Source: Akkermansiaceae bacterium (GTDB taxonomy: Bacteria > Verrucomicrobiota > Verrucomicrobiia > Verrucomicrobiales > Akkermansiaceae). From it: a stretch of 11,330 nt of DNA. The notes under the pieces are model-generated. The model worked only from the letters and a program-made list of their open reading frames with translations, did not search any database and was not told the DNA's origin. The stretch covers positions 1 to 11,330 of the forward strand of contig JAQGPE010000740.1 in the NCBI GenBank assembly GCA_028293225.1. Direction: 5' to 3'. Of this stretch, positions 4,078 through 11,305 are shown piece by piece; position 1 is the stretch's first letter, and each line of letters opens with the position of its first letter. A program made the position numbers and the translations under genes.

Positions 4078-4902
4078 TCAGGCGCGGCGGCGGCGCAGCA
4101 GGCTCACGAGGCCGCATGCGGCGATGAGCGATGCCGCCGAAGCTTCAGGAACGGCCTGGCCGCTGACAGCCATGATCGCCAGGTTGCCTTGTCCGGTGTT
4201 GCTGATGTCGAACGAGACGAGCTGCTTGGCCTGGTCATCACCATTGAGAGTGATGGAGGACTCATAGATGCTGATATTGTCCTGGGACTGGTAGAAGACG
4301 TTGGTATAGCCGTCGTCACTGCGGTTGGAGACGCGGTCGCCCACGATCAGGGCTGCCGTCTGGCTGCCGTCGTTGAACCAGTCGCCGCCGATTCCCGTCC
4401 CATTTGCGATCGTGTAGACCGAAGTCGTGGAATCGGAGAAATGCAGGGTCACGGTGGCGGAGGTCGGGCCGCCGGAGGTGCTGCCGTAAAGGGCCAGGGT
4501 GTTCAGGGAGGTCGGAATCGTGAGCGTGAGGGTGCCCTGGTTCGTTCCGTCCGTGGTATTCAGCAGCAGAGCGTTGCTCGCTGCGAAGTCCTGGAACTGG
4601 AAGGTGGCGCCGCTACCCGTGGCGCTCGTGTAGACGTTTTGCGTCAGTCCGCTCACGACTTGGGTGGCTCCGCCTGCCAGCGGGTAGGTGCCGGCTTCGC
4701 CCCAGGTCCAGTTTTCGTGGCTGCCCGGGCCGTTGTCCATGCTGCCCGTGATGGTGGTGTCGTAGGTGCCGCCGCCGTTGTTGATGACGATGTCCTGGTT
4801 CCAGCCGGTCACACCGATGGTGGTGATGGCGGCGTTGCCGAGCATCGGCGCGAGGGCCGACAATGCAGCGAGGGCTGCGAGGCTTGTGGTGAATTTTTTC
4901 AT
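4078..4902 (-). CDS. Exported PEP-CTERM-type sorting-signal protein
   Basis: This is a 274-residue predicted surface or extracellular protein of unknown specific function. It starts with a signal peptide (MKK, hydrophobic residues 6-22, likely cut at GNA-A near residue 24). The body is low in charge, rich in Thr, Ser, Gly and Asn, and looks beta-rich, as in other exported PEP-CTERM substrates. It closes with a sorting tail: VPEAS (251-255), a hydrophobic helix (about 256-269) and RRRR (270-273). In PEP-CTERM systems this tail is recognised by an exosortase, which anchors or processes the protein at the cell envelope. The tripeptide here reads PEA instead of PEP, a variant. No exosortase gene lies in the window. 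The gene is a single transcription unit read toward its own terminator, divergent from the encapsulin operon. No Shine-Dalgarno is evident before the ATG. Confidence 0.8.
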   Translation of the reverse strand: MKKFTTSLAALAALSALAPMLGNAAITTIGVTGWNQDIVINNGGGTYDTTITGSMDNGPGSHENWTWGEAGTYPLAGGATQVVSGLTQNVYTSATGSGATFQFQDFAASNALLLNTTDGTNQGTLTLTIPTSLNTLALYGSTSGGPTSATVTLHFSDSTTSVYTIANGTGIGGDWFNDGSQTAALIVGDRVSNRSDDGYTNVFYQSQDNISIYESSITLNGDDQAKQLVSFDISNTGQGNLAIMAVSGQAVPEASAASLIAACGLVSLLRRRRA

Positions 4903-5468
4903 GGTGGTAATCGAGTGCTAGCAAAGGCAGGCCGGAAGGATCGGGAGGGGGAAACCCCAAACCTGTGAGGGCTACCAACCACGAATTCTGCTAGAAGTTC
5001 CAAAGGAGATTTCACAAAAAGTCATTTATCTTGTTTTAAACTGCATGATCTTACGGAGGATTGAACACCGTGATGCCTGAGAATCATGAGGATGCGTCAT
5101 TTTTGTGCAGCTTCCCGGAACGTCCCGGCTGAGGTGCCAATCTCGCTACGTTGGGGCGGAAATCCGGTCGACGGAAAACATGCGACGATTCCTGAGCGGG
5201 AGAGGCGGTTCAGAGGCTTCCGGCGGCCCCTTTGAATTGACATTCCGTCCGATCGATTTCAGCGTGCAGCGTTCCTGCCGCAGCCAACTGACAGGACCGC
5301 CGACCATACTTCTGGAGGCTCTCAGCCGCGATCGCCGACCCCACGCAAGGGGGGCTGTTCGCCCACCTATGGATCTGACTCGCTTTCGGCGGAGGATTCA
5401 CCGATCAATTAACCGCCGCCCATGTTATCGGCGGTGCAGATTCTTCATCTCCCTTCCCGTATCCTTCC
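4903..5468. other. Divergent intergenic region between the PEP-CTERM-type gene and the encapsulin operon
   Basis: These 566 bases contain no convincing gene. The part at about 4995-5105 is notably AT-richer than its surroundings and is the likeliest site for a promoter of the minus-strand gene. Arms TGATGC (5071-5076) and GCGTCA (5094-5099, one G-T pair), followed by TTTTT (5100-5104), could form a weak terminator for a short plus-strand RNA. A TTGACA at 5237-5242 resembles a -35 box but has no matching -10 element. A plus-strand open frame through 5105-5689 has an arginine/proline-rich translation and runs into the encapsulin gene out of frame, so it was not called. No riboswitch class was recognised. 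Confidence 0.5.
5412..5435 (+). promoter_or_regulatory. Perfect hairpin in the encapsulin operon leader
   Basis: The arms ACCGCCG (5412-5418) and CGGCGGT (5429-5435) form a 7-base-pair GC-rich stem with a 10-base loop, ending 33 bases before the encapsulin ATG. It has no T-run. It could be an operator (inverted repeat for a dimeric regulator) or an mRNA leader structure. The sequence alone does not decide. Confidence 0.35.
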
Positions 5469-6413
5469 ATGAGCGATCCTGCCCATTCACCCGTCCGTCT
5501 CAGCGTCAGTGCCGAGGCCGCCCGCAATCTCGCCACCGCCACCGTCACCCCGCCACAGTGGGACGAGATCACGCCGCGGTGGCTGCACATCCTGCTGCCA
5601 TGGGTCGACGTCGATGGCGGCGTCTACCGCGTCAACCGGGTGAAGCGCAAGCCGAGCGGGGTGACCGTGGACCTGCTGACCGTCGATGACGGCGAGCCGA
5701 CGCTGCCGACCTCCTTCGTCGACTACGAAGAGGACCCGCGCGAATACCACCTCAGCACCATCCAGACGATCGTCCGCACCCACACGCGGGTCACCGATCT
5801 CTACAGCAACGCGATCGACCAGTTGCGCGAACAGGTCCGCCTGACGGTCGAGGCAGTAAAGGAGCGCGAAGAGCACGAACTGATCAACCACCCGAAGTTC
5901 GGCCTGCTCAATGCCGTCATCGAGTCGCAGCAGATCAAGACCCGCAAGGGCCCGCCAACACCGGACGATCTCGACGAGCTCATTTCGCTGGTCTGGAAGA
6001 AGCCTGCCTTTTTCCTCGCCCATCCCAAGGCGATCGCCGCCTTTGGCCGGGAAGCCACCCGCCGCGGCGTGCCGCCTCCGACCATCACTCTCTTCGGCTC
6101 GCCGTTCCTCACCTGGCGCGGGATTCCGCTGATCCCGAGCGACAAACTCCCGATCAACGATGGCAAGACCAGCATTCTGCTCCTGCGCGTGGGCGAGAAG
6201 CAGCGCGGCGTGGTTGGCCTGCAGAAAGCCGGCGTCGCCGGTGAGATCGAGCCGGGCCTGTCCGTGCGCTACATGAGCACCGACGTGAACTCGATCGCGT
6301 CCCACCTGGTGACGCGCTACTTCTCCGTGGCCAAGCTCGGTGAGGATGCAATCGCCCGTCTGGATGACGTCTCGATCGGCAACTACCACGAATATGTCTA
6401 TCCCACGGCTTGA
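5469..6413 (+). CDS. srpI: Family 2A encapsulin shell protein (SrpI-like)
   Basis: This is a 314-residue HK97-fold shell protein that self-assembles into a closed protein nanocompartment; characterised Family 2A shells are 60-subunit T=1 particles. Family signs include an N-terminal arm with AARNLATATVT (residues 18-28), followed by PRWLHILLPWV (36-46) and a GGVYRVNRV strand. A long helical region with REEHELINHPKFGLLNA follows mid-protein, then a PxxFLAHPKAIAAFGREATRRG segment and a C-terminal YFSVAKLGEDAIARL...YHEYVYP. The length matches Family 2A, and the cyclic-nucleotide-binding insert of Family 2B is absent. The next gene is the cysteine desulfurase that is the known cargo of this family. 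It overlaps this gene by 20 bases, implying coupled synthesis of shell and cargo. The start agrees with the usual N-terminus of the family, and no Shine-Dalgarno precedes it. Shell identity is well supported; particle size and pore properties are inferred from relatives. Confidence 0.93.
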   Translation: MSDPAHSPVRLSVSAEAARNLATATVTPPQWDEITPRWLHILLPWVDVDGGVYRVNRVKRKPSGVTVDLLTVDDGEPTLPTSFVDYEEDPREYHLSTIQTIVRTHTRVTDLYSNAIDQLREQVRLTVEAVKEREEHELINHPKFGLLNAVIESQQIKTRKGPPTPDDLDELISLVWKKPAFFLAHPKAIAAFGREATRRGVPPPTITLFGSPFLTWRGIPLIPSDKLPINDGKTSILLLRVGEKQRGVVGLQKAGVAGEIEPGLSVRYMSTDVNSIASHLVTRYFSVAKLGEDAIARLDDVSIGNYHEYVYPTA

Positions 6414-8214
6414 TCTGCCCGCCCAGGCGCCAGGCCTGCCCGCGGAGCAGTTTCACACGGACGCGATCGCCCGTCTGGCGAACGAGCTCTTCAAGCAGGG
6501 ACCTGCAGGCTCTGCCGCGCCCGCTTCTTCCGCGGCTCCCGCGTCTGCCCCCACGGCCATCGCGGGTCTGCCCTCGGGCTGGCACCCGGAGGGGATTCTC
6601 GGCGCGCCGGAACTCCAGGCTCCGGCGTCGTCCTCACCGGACGATCGCGACATCGCCCTCTCCGGCGGCTTTCCCTCGTCGTCCTCGCCCTCCGCTCCAC
6701 CGCCGGTGCACCCGACGGTGGTCAGCTCCGAGCCTGCGCCCGCGGGCAAAGAGCAGGCGACCGAGAGCGGCGCGCATCGCCCCGGCGACGGCAACTCGCA
6801 GGAATTCGGCGAGCCTTCCTTTTACACGGAAGGACTGCGCGCCAACTCCCGGAACTCCGCGAGCCCTGAATCCCCTCACGCGGGTCTGGGCCTGCCGGGC
6901 TTCGAGGACAGTAGCGCGCCGGACTCCGGCTTCTACTTCCTGGAAGGCATCCCGAACGTCGACGTCTTCCAGCGTGGAGCCTCGCCGCGCGCCCGCCTGC
7001 CGGAGTTCAACATCGATGGCGTGCGCCGGGATTTCCCCGCGCTTCAGCAGCATGTGAACGGACGCCCGCTGGTGTGGCTGGACAATGCCGCCACGACCCA
7101 CAAGCCGCAGAGCGTGATCGACGCGACCTCGAGCTTCTACTCGCGCGACAACTCGAACATCCATCGCGCGGCGCACACGCTGGCGGAACGCTCCACGCGG
7201 CTGTTCGAAGCGGGCCGGGAAAAGGTCCGCCAGTTTCTCGGCGCAGCGGACGCGAAGGAGATCGTTTTCGTTCGCGGCACCACCGAGGCCATCAATCTGG
7301 TCGCCCAGAGCTGGGGCCGGCAAAACATCGGCGCCGGGGATGAGATCATTCTCAGCCAGCTGGAGCACCACGCGAACATCGTCCCGTGGCAGATCCTGGC
7401 CGGTCAGGTCGGCGCGAAGCTGCGGGTGATTCCGATCAACGACCGCGGCGAACTGCTGGTGGAGGAGCTGCCGAAGCTGCTCAACGAGCGCACCAGGATC
7501 GTTTCGGTCACGCAGGTTTCGAACGCCCTCGGTACGGTGAATCCCGTAGAGGAAATCATCGCCATCGCGCATGCCCACGGCGTGCCGGTGTTGGTGGACG
7601 GCGCCCAGTCGACGCCGCACATGCCGATCAACGTCCAGACGATGAACGCGGACTTCTTCGTCTTTTCCGGGCATAAGATCTTTGGTCCGACCGGGATCGG
7701 CGCGCTTTACGGAAAGTCGCATCTGCTCGAGGCCATGCCGCCGTGGCAGGGCGGGGGCCACATGATCCAGGACGTGACCTTTGAGAAGACGATCTACAAC
7801 CGGCCGCCGGAGAAGTTCGAGGCCGGCACCCCGGACATCGCCGGGGTGGTGGGGCTCGGCGCGGCGATCGACTACATGATCAGTCTCGGCATTCCCGCCC
7901 TCGCGGCCTATGAGCACTCGCTGCTGGAGTATGCCGAGGAGGCGCTGCGCTCGGTGCGCGGCGTGCGTCCCATCGGCACGGCGGCGAATAAGGCCAGCGT
8001 GTTCGGCTTCGTCATCCCGGGCATCCCGAATGACCGGATCGCCAAGCATCTCGACCAGCAGGGTATCGCTGTGCGGGCCGGGCATCACTGCGCCATGCCG
8101 GCCGTGCGGCACTTCGATATCGAGACCACCATCCGCCCGTCGCTGGCGTTTTACAACAACCGTGGCGATGTCGATGCCCTGATCGAGTCGCTGCATCAGA
8201 TTGCCCGTCGCTGA
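6394..8214 (+). CDS. Encapsulated type II cysteine desulfurase with disordered N-terminal cargo domain
   Basis: This PLP enzyme converts L-cysteine to L-alanine, leaving sulfur as an enzyme persulfide. With the start at 6394 it has 606 residues, against about 400-410 for ordinary SufS. The catalytic domain spans about 203-606. It has the histidine pair in LEHHANIVPW (323-332), the PLP-binding lysine K428 in SGHKIFGP and the catalytic cysteine C566 in RAGHHCAMPA, all typical of SufS/CsdA type II enzymes. Residues 1-202 are rich in Ala, Pro, Ser and Gly and presumably disordered. They hold a few conserved-looking islands: an amphipathic helix with IARLANELF (25-33), GWHPEGILG (62-70), SFYTEGL (142-148) and SGFYFLEGIPNVDVF (178-192). 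In Family 2A systems such an extension directs the enzyme into the shell. An in-frame ATG at 6340 would add 18 residues inside the encapsulin gene and is less likely. No SufE/SufU-type sulfur acceptor gene is in the operon; the rhodanese is a candidate acceptor. Confidence 0.93.
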   Translation: MSIPRLDLPAQAPGLPAEQFHTDAIARLANELFKQGPAGSAAPASSAAPASAPTAIAGLPSGWHPEGILGAPELQAPASSSPDDRDIALSGGFPSSSSPSAPPPVHPTVVSSEPAPAGKEQATESGAHRPGDGNSQEFGEPSFYTEGLRANSRNSASPESPHAGLGLPGFEDSSAPDSGFYFLEGIPNVDVFQRGASPRARLPEFNIDGVRRDFPALQQHVNGRPLVWLDNAATTHKPQSVIDATSSFYSRDNSNIHRAAHTLAERSTRLFEAGREKVRQFLGAADAKEIVFVRGTTEAINLVAQSWGRQNIGAGDEIILSQLEHHANIVPWQILAGQVGAKLRVIPINDRGELLVEELPKLLNERTRIVSVTQVSNALGTVNPVEEIIAIAHAHGVPVLVDGAQSTPHMPINVQTMNADFFVFSGHKIFGPTGIGALYGKSHLLEAMPPWQGGGHMIQDVTFEKTIYNRPPEKFEAGTPDIAGVVGLGAAIDYMISLGIPALAAYEHSLLEYAEEALRSVRGVRPIGTAANKASVFGFVIPGIPNDRIAKHLDQQGIAVRAGHHCAMPAVRHFDIETTIRPSLAFYNNRGDVDALIESLHQIARR

Positions 8215-8262
8215 GCGAAAGGCCTCCCGCTCCGCCCTGTCTGTCCCGTCCGATTCGAACGC

Positions 8263-8733
8263 ATGATCCCGATCGACATTCCGGGCTTCGGCCCGTTGCG
8301 GCTGGTCCATCTGGTGATCGATTTCAATGGCACCCTGGCCATCGACCGCTGTCTGCACTTGGGCATCGGCCAGACGCTCCGGCATCTGGCCGAGCGCCTG
8401 GAGATCCACGTGGTGACGGGCGACGAGTCGGGGGACGCCATGAAACAGCTCGGCGATCTGCCGCTGCGCCTGACCCTGATCCAGGGCGGAAACCAGGCAG
8501 AGGCGAAACTGGACTATGTGAAGAGCCTGGGCGCTGAAAGCGTCGTGGCCATCGGCAACGGCCGCAACGATCACCTGATGATCGAGGCCGCGGCCCTGGG
8601 GATCGCCGTGATTCACAAGGAAGGCGCCGCGCAGCAGGTGATCCGCGCCTCCGATGTCGTGACCACCAGCGTCATCGATGCCCTCGACCTGCTGTTCCAA
8701 CCGCGCCGCCTGATTTCCACGCTCCGTTCCTGA
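8263..8733 (+). CDS. Small HAD-superfamily protein, soluble P-type-ATPase-like
   Basis: This is a 156-residue cytoplasmic HAD-fold protein resembling the soluble P-type ATPase group (COG4087-like). Motif I reads D20-F-N-G-T-L: the aspartate nucleophile is present, but the usual second Asp of HAD phosphatases (DxD) is Asn22. P-type ATPases likewise lack that second Asp (DKTGT). Motif II is probably T52 in VTGD, motif III K82 in EAKLDYVK, and motif IV GNGRND (98-103), whose aspartate would bind magnesium. No cap domain or membrane segment is visible. Such proteins may be phosphatases or phosphotransfer/sensor domains; the substrate is unknown. The gene lies 48 bases after the desulfurase and 23 before the rhodanese, so it is almost surely co-transcribed with the sulfur genes, but its role there is unknown. 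The fold assignment is strong; the function is open. Confidence 0.8.
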   Translation: MIPIDIPGFGPLRLVHLVIDFNGTLAIDRCLHLGIGQTLRHLAERLEIHVVTGDESGDAMKQLGDLPLRLTLIQGGNQAEAKLDYVKSLGAESVVAIGNGRNDHLMIEAAALGIAVIHKEGAAQQVIRASDVVTTSVIDALDLLFQPRRLISTLRS

Positions 8734-8756
8734 TCGCATCCCACGCCTTTCCCGCC

Positions 8757-9293
8757 ATGAAAACCATCACGCCTGAAGCTCTCGCCCCTCTCCTCGCCGC
8801 CGACCCGGCGCTGCCGGTGATCGATGTCCGCACGCCGCTGGAGTTCGATGAGACCCACCTCGCCCGTTCGCGGAATCTGCCGCTTGACCGGCTTTCCCCG
8901 CGCGATCTGCTCGAGCAGCAGGCCCTGCCGGTCGATGCTCCGATTTATCTGCTCTGTCGCTCCGGCCAGCGCGCGACCAAGGCGGCGGAACGTCTCGAGG
9001 CCGCCGGCTTTCAGCACGCCACGGTGGTCACCGGCGGCATTCTCGCCTGGGAGCAGGCCGGGCTGCCGGTCACCCGCGGCGAGTCAAAGGTCATCAGCCT
9101 GGAGCGCCAGGTCCGCATCGGTGCGGGCTCGCTGGTGTTCATCGGCGTCCTGCTCGGCTGGTTCGTCCACCCGGGCTTCTTCGGCCTGTCCGGCTTCGTC
9201 GGCGCGGGTCTTGTTTTTGCGGGTATCTCCGACTGGTGCGGCATGGGCCTGCTGCTGGCGAAGGCACCCTGGAATCAGCGAAAATCTTCATGA
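8757..9293 (+). CDS. Membrane-anchored rhodanese (rhodanese plus DUF2892, YgaP-like)
   Basis: This is a 178-residue sulfurtransferase. The N-terminal rhodanese domain (about 1-105) has VIDVRTPLEFDETHL (21-35) and the active loop C67-RSGQR72. C67 is the residue that carries persulfide sulfur. The tail GGILAWEQAGLPV (93-105) is typical of single-domain rhodaneses. Residues 115-172 match the DUF2892 membrane unit: SLERQVR, then two hydrophobic segments (about 121-138 and 141-158), then CGMGLLLAKAPWN with a further cysteine, C161. The same architecture is found in E. coli YgaP, an inner-membrane rhodanese. The catalytic domain should face the cytoplasm. In this operon it could accept or supply sulfur for the encapsulated desulfurase pathway, or oxidise or transfer sulfide at the membrane; that role is inferred. 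The stop codon overlaps the next start as ATGA, indicating translational coupling to the serine acetyltransferase. Confidence 0.88.
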   Translation: MKTITPEALAPLLAADPALPVIDVRTPLEFDETHLARSRNLPLDRLSPRDLLEQQALPVDAPIYLLCRSGQRATKAAERLEAAGFQHATVVTGGILAWEQAGLPVTRGESKVISLERQVRIGAGSLVFIGVLLGWFVHPGFFGLSGFVGAGLVFAGISDWCGMGLLLAKAPWNQRKSS

Positions 9294-10270
9294 GCGATCT
9301 GCCGCTTTCCTTTTCCCAATACGACCGCGCGGAGGGCTCCGCCTTCGTCATGCCCTATGGGGAGTTCGTCCCCAAGCTGCTGGCCTCCTACGAACGCTTC
9401 GGCGGCATCAACAACGCCGACGCGATGAACCTGCCGTCCAAGCGGGCGGTGGGGGAGATCTGCGAGAGCCTGCTGCAGCTGCTCTTCCCTGGCTTTCACG
9501 ACCTCGACGTGGTGCAGAACGGCAACCTCGCCGAGCTGACCGCGCGGCGGCTGTGGGATGTGGTGACGCGTCTGGAGGACCAGGTGCGCAAGAGCGTCCG
9601 CATCGGCAATCCGTCCGTGCCGACCGGCAAGACCCCGCCGATCATGCGCAAGTTCTGCCGCGCCCTGCACATCGTGCGGGAGGTGCTGCGGACCGACATT
9701 GATGCGGCCTACGCCAATGACCCCTCGGCGCGCAGCCGGGAGGAAATCATCCTGTCGTATCCCTTCATCGAGGCCATCGCGATCCAGCGCCTGGCGCACC
9801 GCCTGTTCCGGGCGGGCGCGCCGATCATCCCGCGCATGATGACGGAGTGGGCGCACAGCCGGACCGGGATCGACATCCATCCCGGGGCCAGCATTGGCTC
9901 GCACTTCTTCATCGACCACGGCACCGGCGTGGTGATCGGCGAAACCTGCTACATCGGCAACCGCTGCAAGATCTACCACGGGGTCACGCTCGGCACCCGC
10001 ACCTTCATCAAGGACGAAGCCGGCCACGTGGTGAAGGGCCTGAAGCGCCACCCGGTGCTGGCGGATGACGTGACCATCTACCCGAACTCCACCATCCTCG
10101 GCGGCGACACGGTCATCGGCGAGAACTCCACCATCGGAGCGAACGTCTTTCTCATGCACAGCATCCCGGCGAATTCGCTGGTGATCTATGAGGAGAAAAA
10201 CCTCAGCATCAAGACCAAGCCGCCGCGTGACGACTCCAAGAGCCAGGCGGACCTGCTCTGGTCGATCTGA
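9290..10270 (+). CDS. cysE: Serine O-acetyltransferase (CysE/EpsC type)
   Basis: This cytoplasmic enzyme acetylates L-serine with acetyl-CoA to give O-acetylserine, the first step of cysteine synthesis. It has 326 residues. The N-terminal half (1-185) is helical, as in the long plant/EpsC-like forms. The C-terminal half is a left-handed beta-helix of hexapeptide repeats, with active-site residues D195 in DIHPGA and H210 in IDHGTGVVIGET (equivalent to D143 and H158 of E. coli CysE), then YHGVTLGTR and ADDVTIYPNSTILGG. The protein ends in isoleucine (DLLWSI). In CysE family members a C-terminal Ile inserts into the cysteine synthase active site to form the cysteine synthase complex, and the next gene is cysteine synthase. 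An upstream in-frame ATG (9236) exists, but 9290 forms an ATGA overlap with the rhodanese stop and is preferred. Confidence 0.93.
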   Translation: MSDLPLSFSQYDRAEGSAFVMPYGEFVPKLLASYERFGGINNADAMNLPSKRAVGEICESLLQLLFPGFHDLDVVQNGNLAELTARRLWDVVTRLEDQVRKSVRIGNPSVPTGKTPPIMRKFCRALHIVREVLRTDIDAAYANDPSARSREEIILSYPFIEAIAIQRLAHRLFRAGAPIIPRMMTEWAHSRTGIDIHPGASIGSHFFIDHGTGVVIGETCYIGNRCKIYHGVTLGTRTFIKDEAGHVVKGLKRHPVLADDVTIYPNSTILGGDTVIGENSTIGANVFLMHSIPANSLVIYEEKNLSIKTKPPRDDSKSQADLLWSI

Positions 10271-10297
10271 TTTCATTTCCCTCCTCCTGCCCAAGCC

Positions 10298-11305
10298 ATG
10301 ACCCCTCCTCCCACCTACTTCGGCCTCGACCACTACGTCGGCAGGACGCCGTTGCTGCGCCTGAAGAAACTGTCCGCTCTGACAGGCTGCGAAATACTAG
10401 GCAAGGCGGAGTTCATGAATCCAGGCGGCTCGGTGAAGGACCGCGCGGCCTATGGGATCATCACCGATGCCGAGCGGCGCGGGTTGCTGCAGCCGGGCGG
10501 AACCATTGTGGAAGGGACCGCGGGCAATACGGGCATCGGGCTTACGGTGATCGGCCAGGCGCGCGGCTACCGCACCGTCATCGTGATTCCCGACACCCAG
10601 GCGCCGGAGAAGATTGAGCAGCTGCGTGCCCTCGGCGCGGAGGTCATTCCCGTGCCGCCGAAGCCCTTCAGCGATCCCGGCAACTACAACCACATCGCCC
10701 GCGAGTTGGCGGCGGAGCGGGGCGGGTTCTGGGCCAACCAGTTCGACAACGTCGCGAACCGCCAGGCGCATTTCGGCACCACCGGCCCGGAGATCTGGGA
10801 ACAGACCGGCGGCACCGTGAACGCCTTCGTCGCGGCGGTCGGGACCGGTGGCACCCTGGCGGGGACCTCGCAATTTCTCAAGACGCAGAACCCGAAGGTC
10901 GCGGCCGTCTGCGCGGATCCTTACGGCGCCGCGATGTGGTCGTGGTTCACGAATGGCAATCTGGATACCGATGATGGCGACTCGTTCGCGGAAGGCATCG
11001 GCCAGGGCAGGGTGACGAAGAACCTGGAGGATCTGGTGATCGATAAGGCCTACCGTATCGATGATCAGACGGCCCTTTCGGTAATCTATCAACTGCTGCG
11101 GGAGGAGGGGCTGCTGCTCGGTCTTTCCAGCGGCATCAACGTGGCCGGCGCGGTGCGGTATGCGCTGGAGCACGGGCCGGGCCTGACCATTGCGACCATC
11201 CTCTGTGACACCGGTTTGAAGTACCGGCAGAAGCTCTCGAATCCGGCCTGGCTGACGGAGAATGGCTTGGATCCGGATCTGCCGGTGGAGAGCGTGTTTG
11301 CGTGA
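10298..11305 (+). CDS. cysK: Cysteine synthase (O-acetylserine sulfhydrylase)
   Basis: This PLP enzyme combines O-acetylserine with sulfide to give L-cysteine and acetate, using the product of the preceding gene. The 335-residue length is typical. The PLP lysine is K47 in NPGGSVKDRAA. The substrate loop reads GTAGNTG (73-79) where E. coli CysK has PTSGNTG. The cofactor phosphate loop is VGTGGTLAG (181-189), EGIG lies at 232-235, and S278 in GLSSGIN contacts the PLP ring. The C-terminus (ILCDTGLKYRQKL) is common to bacterial CysK enzymes. CysM or cystathionine beta-synthase-type activity cannot be fully excluded, but the pairing with serine acetyltransferase favours O-acetylserine as substrate. 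The gene starts 27 bases after its neighbour without a Shine-Dalgarno and is the last gene of the visible operon. The 25 bases that follow show no terminator, so the operon may continue. Confidence 0.92.
   Translation: MTPPPTYFGLDHYVGRTPLLRLKKLSALTGCEILGKAEFMNPGGSVKDRAAYGIITDAERRGLLQPGGTIVEGTAGNTGIGLTVIGQARGYRTVIVIPDTQAPEKIEQLRALGAEVIPVPPKPFSDPGNYNHIARELAAERGGFWANQFDNVANRQAHFGTTGPEIWEQTGGTVNAFVAAVGTGGTLAGTSQFLKTQNPKVAAVCADPYGAAMWSWFTNGNLDTDDGDSFAEGIGQGRVTKNLEDLVIDKAYRIDDQTALSVIYQLLREEGLLLGLSSGINVAGAVRYALEHGPGLTIATILCDTGLKYRQKLSNPAWLTENGLDPDLPVESVFA

Follow-up and report, generated by a model that had tools for sequence, protein, structure and literature searches.

Family 2A encapsulins form virus-like shells, and that of Acinetobacter baumannii is said to store sulfur (work of Benisch et al. 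in 2024). This work is cited in PMC11946847 and PMC10960027; a further paper (PMC13274419) concerns a bacterial microcompartment (BMC) locus. The closest described gene cluster is the srp cluster on a 46-kb plasmid of Synechococcus elongatus PCC 7942, where cysK, epsC, srpI, cyd and the gene for a rhodanese all point the same way (Nichols et al., 2021; PMC8049743); that paper raises both the storage of sulfur and its passing on. Here, we describe a six-gene Family 2A encapsulin operon at positions 5469-11305 of an 11,330-nucleotide stretch of DNA (hereafter the window), which is one entire contig (JAQGPE010000740.1) of a 62% complete genome of an Akkermansiaceae bacterium. We consider it probable that this operon, which carries its own cysteine supply, acts as a sulfur reserve under sulfur limitation.

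The six open reading frames all lie on the + strand, have ATG starts and are tightly packed, with the contig ending 25 bases past cysK. The junctions between them, in order, are -20, +48, +23, -4 and +27 bases, exactly the six co-directional genes with gaps of at most 48 bases and two overlaps that the initial annotation had reported, and this spacing suggests that the genes are co-transcribed. The window resembles the srp cluster in its co-directional gene set: the shell protein is 58% identical to those of S. elongatus and A. baumannii, and the S. elongatus cargo desulfurase is of the same kind. However, in S. elongatus the genes for cysteine synthase and serine O-acetyltransferase (SAT) precede that of the shell, the rhodanese is 116 amino acids by its coordinates compared with 178 in the window, and no match to the HAD protein of the window was found within a 12-kb stretch. 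The CysK and SAT of S. elongatus match those of the window at 36% and 45%. Six Nitrospira Family 2A operons with a cysteine desulfurase (CD) are also similar, in that all six have a cysteine synthase-type gene, shell, desulfurase and SAT, and five of them have sulfate ABC genes. They differ in that the cysteine synthase is of another type and lies upstream, and in having no HAD match and no rhodanese match at an identity of at least 50%. A cysteine supply beside a Family 2A shell is already known; what is added here includes the conserved six-gene order and the HAD partner.

The six gene products and their conservation

The shell gene (5469..6413, + strand) encodes a SrpI-like protein of 314 amino acids, which scores 464.9 bits against the Family 2A model NF041162 (cut-off 380). 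It also passes the Family 2B model (438.9 bits over 400); we assign it to Family 2A because it has no internal cNMP-binding domain, PF19307 being its sole Pfam family. Its best PDB relatives are 8t6r_A, the A. baumannii Family 2A encapsulin and the best match overall (residues 10-309 of the window's shell), and 6x8m_A. The initial annotation was thus right to propose a Family 2A shell with a cysteine desulfurase cargo, given this score, the lack of the cNMP domain and the adjacent SufS-like enzyme. It was also correct in calling the genome likely verrucomicrobial, the best shell matches being from Verrucomicrobiaceae and Haloferula.

The desulfurase gene (6394..8214, + strand) overlaps the shell gene by 20 bases and encodes a SufS-type cysteine desulfurase of 606 amino acids (TIGR01979, 544.7 bits, cut-off 475.1). 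The catalytic-domain motifs SGHK and GHHC are both present, and their residues presumably play the roles usual in SufS. PF00266 covers residues 227-596 and is preceded by a long unannotated N-terminus, an extension of about 200 residues rich in A, P, S and G; the full-length AlphaFold model (pLDDT 39) is too poor to judge its disorder. Both N-terminal cargo motifs are found in this enzyme. The first, TDAIARLANELFKQ (6457..6498, + strand; ARLANELFKQ), compares with the published LARLANEFFS and varies among six aligned desulfurases, while the second, SAPDSGFYFLEGIPN (6913..6957, + strand; SGFYFLEG), compares by motif and alignment with the published AASPYYFLDG (both from the available sections of PMC8049743).

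The rhodanese (8757..9293, + strand; 178 amino acids) combines PF00581 with PF11127 and has a YgaP-like membrane tail. Its cysteine loop, CRSGQR, is intact in all five operons compared, and we take the loop residues to have their usual roles. The SAT gene (9290..10270, + strand) overlaps the rhodanese gene by 4 bases and encodes a CysE/EpsC-type enzyme of 326 amino acids that falls below the cut-off of TIGR01172 (152.7 bits, cut-off 210.65) and passes NF041874 (151.8 bits, cut-off 150). It is followed by cysteine synthase A, or O-acetylserine sulfhydrylase (CysK; 10298..11305, + strand; 335 amino acids), with a PGGSVKDR motif and 478 bits against NF007989 (cut-off 387). In known complexes, the C-terminal isoleucine of SAT docks into CysK. 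As the SAT in the window ends in WSI and so keeps this isoleucine, the two enzymes probably form the usual complex. The residue is present in 35 of the 37 complete best SAT matches, S. elongatus among them, whereas the residues preceding it vary; SATs without it are those of loci L015 and L038, where the gene is on the opposite strand.

The shell occurs in 5 of the 18 genomes of the window's genus, and the full-length HAD protein and the operon-type SAT and CysK occur in exactly those five, so the block is present or absent as a unit. Operon-type matches (SAT, 154-162 bits; CysK, 261-276 bits; types separated by score and position and not by a tree) lie within the operon in the five shell genomes and were found in none of the other 13. 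Besides these, over-cut-off CysE and CysK are present in 17 of the 18, the incomplete genome G000 being the only one without them. On this sequence evidence, the operon SAT and CysK are additional to the housekeeping copies.

An identical six-gene set, in unchanged order, occurs in five further genomes from two genera: L011, L090, L091 and L092 belong to the window's genus, and L194 to another genus of the family. The 20-base overlap between shell and cargo genes recurs in L011, L090, L091 and L092. Across the five operons the HAD protein is 53-63% identical to that of the window, and the genes downstream of the operon differ. The ratio of non-synonymous to synonymous substitution (dN/dS) for the six genes is 0.03-0.09 when L090 is compared with L091, and 0.04-0.17 when L011 is compared with L092. 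Given the recurrence of the arrangement in five further genomes and the low dN/dS of the L090-L091 pair, it is not due to chance. Sequence comparison establishes that the shell, the desulfurase with its cargo motifs, the membrane rhodanese, the second SAT, the second cysteine synthase and the HAD protein are kept as one block. Variants also exist: L016 has all six genes and an O-acetylhomoserine sulfhydrylase between CysK and HAD, and L012 has no rhodanese in its operon. In L041 (1-8454), the order is sulfate ABC genes, cysteine synthase, rhodanese, HAD, a second cysteine synthase, shell and desulfurase.

For a wider view, we compared 44 shell loci, of which 38 came from a search of genome contigs and the others are L090-L094 and L194. 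The 38 were chosen from 80 that were kept; the 42 left out are mostly from Methylobacterium and its kin, with the split matches of 2B-type shells, a pattern that five of the 44 (L043-L047) also show. Genes were counted on either strand and in any order, and contig ends truncate many of the loci. SAT is present in 38 of the 44, any cysteine synthase in 29 and both in 27 (the six Nitrospira loci each have the two), while a rhodanese match of at least 50% identity is found in 30 and HAD in nine. The shell thus repeatedly has a cysteine supply next to it, with both enzymes present in 27 of 44 loci and in the type member, S. elongatus. Thus, the statement in the initial annotation that both cysteine-making enzymes sit in the operon holds here, but as a novelty it was overstated, since S. 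elongatus and these 27 loci have both. Furthermore, according to a 2021 survey (PMC8346489), no accessory genes are more enriched in these operons than those for the acetyltransferase (SAT) and rhodanese. In the available portions of the open-licence PMC literature on encapsulins we found no report of a HAD-bearing operon, which Fig. S5 of PMC8346489 may list, and no open-licence PMC paper was found that links an encapsulin with Luteolibacter.

The HAD protein

The third gene of the operon (8263..8733, + strand) encodes a HAD protein of 156 amino acids. Its structure model (pLDDT 91.6) is a HAD fold without a cap domain that resembles the P-domains of P-type ATPases and the KdsC phosphatases; its match to PF08282 is weak (22.8 bits, cut-off 20.9). 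The family of this 156-residue protein has 1319 members at E <= 0.001, named 'soluble P-type ATPase' in some sources. Its motifs are DxNGTL, TGD, K82 and GNGRND, and residues D20, T52, D54, K82 and D103 are conserved in 19 of 19 sequences. Motif I is DxN, with N22 invariant in the same 19, and motif IV, GNGRND, departs from GDGxND, with N99 invariant in 120 of 120 among the matches listed (of 1319). The protein thus has what a P-type-ATPase-like soluble HAD protein shows, namely a nucleophile Asp, T(G/A)D, Lys and GxGxND on a HAD fold, but it lacks the DxD with a general acid/base Asp and the GDGxND of canonical HAD phosphatases. The roles of the nucleophile and general-acid aspartates are those we take to hold for HAD proteins at large. 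Phosphatase activity could nonetheless be present, because the solved phosphoserine phosphatase 5it4 also has GNGxND. A role as a phosphoserine phosphatase feeding SAT is not supported: 5it4 is the best PDB match (1.4e-7, residues 31-117), but a copper ATPase is next at 2.3e-7, and motif I differs.

HAD directly follows the cargo gene and takes third place in the window, in the five matching operons and in L012 and L026, and it has another position in the cluster in L016 and L041. Its association with the shell was counted in three overlapping samples: 97 relatives, a phylum sample of 387 and a class sample of 384 genomes. Among the relatives, a full-length HAD is present in six, all with a shell, and the shell in eight (G084 and G087 have it without HAD); ten further relatives give weak or partial HAD matches only, including G050 (residues 81-156, no shell). 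The phylum sample has HAD in 6 of 387 genomes, the shell in 12 and both in five; G458 has HAD only, where it adjoins GTP-PEPCK and a phosphate transporter, and the shell of G170 is 2B-like.

In the class sample, HAD is found in 11 of 384 genomes, the shell in 21 and both in nine. A shell is therefore present in 9 of 11 HAD genomes versus 12 of the 373 others (p = 3.3e-11 by genome and 4e-6 by genus, Fisher's test without correction for descent). Of the 21 shells, five are 2B-like, their match being confined to the later part of the model; these include the shells of G170 and G657, where HAD lies 1.1 Mb from the shell or on another contig. With the 16 other shells, both genes occur in seven genomes, HAD only in four, the shell only in nine and neither in 364. 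A 2A shell is thus present in 7 of 11 HAD genomes versus 9 of 373 (p = 1.5e-8 by genome and 0.003 by genus, likewise uncorrected for descent). HAD was also present in 7 of 38 encapsulin genomes (of the 80 loci), in five of them within the fetched locus.

HAD is not specific to encapsulins: five plasmid records have a HAD match, and the 32 that match the shell include none of them. In three of the five records, the neighbours are hydrogenase-like genes and an inorganic diphosphatase (two from Burkholderia) and a universal stress gene (Cupriavidus). HAD and encapsulins are statistically associated in the class, and the occurrence of HAD far from any encapsulin as well suggests an accessory that was recruited. 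Elsewhere, in G553 (C3:317792-318251), a genome without a shell match, the HAD match is in two overlapping pieces, perhaps through a frameshift.

Sulfate-uptake neighbours and a candidate operator

In 15 of the 44 loci, the shell has genes for sulfate ABC transporters (at least 45% identity) no more than about 10 kb away, and in 13 it has OscA-like genes; 19 have one or the other. In L016, the shell is preceded by an Rrf2 regulator, a weak OscA-like gene, a relative of the porin gene of L090, a sulfate-binding protein, an over-cut-off CysK, CysT, CysW, CysA and a second sulfate-binding protein (Sbp being among those identified). The regulator is related to CymR but under the CymR model cut-off, and the OscA match is also below its cut-off. 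L090, of the window's genus and with the same six genes, has Rrf2, DUF2292, porin and solute-binding protein genes after cysK. Rrf2, OscA-like/DUF2292 and sulfate-transport-type genes were likewise seen near the encapsulin operon in L016 (257-9337), L090 (732-4038), L010 and L012. The Rrf2 regulator is not tied to the shell. It is matched in 11 of the 18 genus genomes, shell or no shell (that of G000 is a 48-residue piece), and it adjoins the operon in G006, lies about 8.6 kb past cysK in G008 and is elsewhere in G009 and G015. In S. elongatus, an annotated Rrf2 family regulator (L119, 1797-2231) lies about 4 kb upstream of srpI on the opposite strand.

A dyad, GCCGACC-N8-GGAGGC (5299..5319, no strand assigned), begins 170 nt before the shell start in the window and could be an operator or a hairpin. 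It begins 166-178 nt 5' of the shell in the window, L010, L011, L090, L091 and L092; near forms occur in L017 and L194, and the dyad is also found between OscA-like and porin-like genes in L016 (at 1264) and L018. The pattern also matches inside Methylobacterium and other fetched loci, and a relaxed pattern gave no match within 400 nt upstream in 36 of 45 loci. The dyad may be a candidate operator of a sulfur regulon. As a larger RNA the region gave single-strand folds no better than shuffles in five of five cases, and Rfam gave no match at the gathering threshold and a single weak one (E 0.98) near the dyad. A promoter scan found none, and terminator-like sites numbered 3 against 3.5 in shuffles, one of them (9292-9307) lying at the SAT start.

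Elsewhere in the window, positions 1-1173 hold a truncated gene for a NirA/CobG-like protein of the nitrite/sulfite reductase type, of which the contig end leaves the C-terminal part. On the - strand, 4078-4902 encodes a protein without a Pfam or NCBIfam match, whose tail, VPE...RRRR, we take to be PEP-CTERM-like.

Reserve, sink or delivery

When sulfur is limiting, the sulfide produced by assimilatory sulfate reduction would be fixed into cysteine by SAT, through O-acetylserine, and CysK. Cysteine would enter the shell, where the encapsulated desulfurase would remove the sulfur as a persulfide and leave alanine, and the sulfur would be retained inside as a reserve of sulfane or elemental sulfur. 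The membrane rhodanese would take up sulfur or hand it on, with HAD as a conserved accessory of the proposed storage operon. By our own arithmetic, and if the persulfide is assumed to end as S0, the net reaction would be serine + H2S -> alanine + S0 + H2O at the cost of one acetyl-CoA thioester. This would be redox-neutral, the hydroxyl carbon of serine serving as the electron acceptor. Storage by the window's shell is inferred by analogy, from the 58% identity it shares with the shells of S. elongatus and A. baumannii and from the A. baumannii work.

The initial annotation had instead suggested a sulfide sink, in which excess sulfide would switch the operon on and be locked in the shell as sulfur, with alanine and acetate released. 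Every enzyme of such a route is encoded, and by the same arithmetic it would need no outside oxidant. However, the neighbourhood counts above disfavour it, as the genes found beside the operon in relatives are those of sulfate uptake and of a sulfur-starvation type (no search for sulfide-oxidation genes was made). Furthermore, SrpI and its cargo in S. elongatus are induced by sulfate starvation, according to the available sections of PMC8049743, and one acetyl-CoA per sulfide seems a high price for detoxification. Because of the sulfate-uptake and starvation genes near 19 of 44 loci and the induction of SrpI, we favour a sulfur reserve and regard the sink as quite unlikely. Delivery is a different proposal, put forward in the available part of PMC8346489: the shell would restrict access to the persulfide, and the co-encoded membrane rhodanese would be a dedicated acceptor that feeds iron-sulfur (Fe-S) or thio-cofactor pathways. 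The intact cysteine loop of the operon rhodanese and the recurrence of this gene in 30 of 44 loci speak for such a role, which is possible but doubtful. A separate over-cut-off SufS is already present in 16 of the 18 genus genomes (G001 has none and G000 only the cargo enzyme), and an encapsulated pool with a rhodanese outlet would be compatible with storage. Finally, SAT and CysK are a standard pair and might belong to housekeeping cysteine synthesis that merely neighbours an encapsulin. This is highly improbable, since in the genus both occur as additional copies, set apart by their scores, only where the shell is present, and the single-contig genome G009 holds both kinds of copy.

Several points weigh against a sulfur reserve as drawn here. 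The desulfurase falls short of the NCBI Family 2A cargo model NF041166 (776.8 bits, cut-off 800, aligned over 16-603 of 606), although this is a narrow miss of a naming threshold and no defining feature in the available parts of the encapsulin papers PMC8346489 and PMC8049743. Neither sulfate ABC nor OscA-like genes are found in 25 of the 44 loci, many of them cut by contig ends, including the six-gene L011, L091 and L092, and no chance rate was computed for these neighbours. HAD is present in just 9 of the 44. G012 and G016, of the genus but without a shell, have a further CysK of a different score class (330-334 bits), the rhodanese could drain a sulfur store instead of serving it, and the argument for verrucomicrobial sulfur storage is drawn from gene content and sequence.

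A more far-reaching proposal, tentative and on the unlikely side, is that HAD takes an active part in the sulfur encapsulins of a verrucomicrobial branch. It would be a P-type-ATPase-like phospho-switch gating SAT-CysK, the serine supply or the passage of sulfur between shell and rhodanese, and the operon would be a self-contained, redox-neutral, serine-driven S0 machine under a sulfur-starvation operator dyad shared with sulfate uptake genes. With the nucleophile Asp kept and the general-acid Asp lost, HAD may be a slow or regulatory phosphoryl enzyme.

In summary, the sulfur encapsulin occurs in a genus to which a cultured species, Luteolibacter luteus, appears to belong. Its substrate supply accompanies the shell as extra gene copies, exactly where the shell occurs in the genus. 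HAD is an extra conserved partner beyond the known set of the sulfur compartment, with a putative accessory function. In Verrucomicrobiota and Nitrospira, where the system lies near sulfate uptake genes, the question of reserve, delivery or sink could be tested by deletion in an environmental strain.

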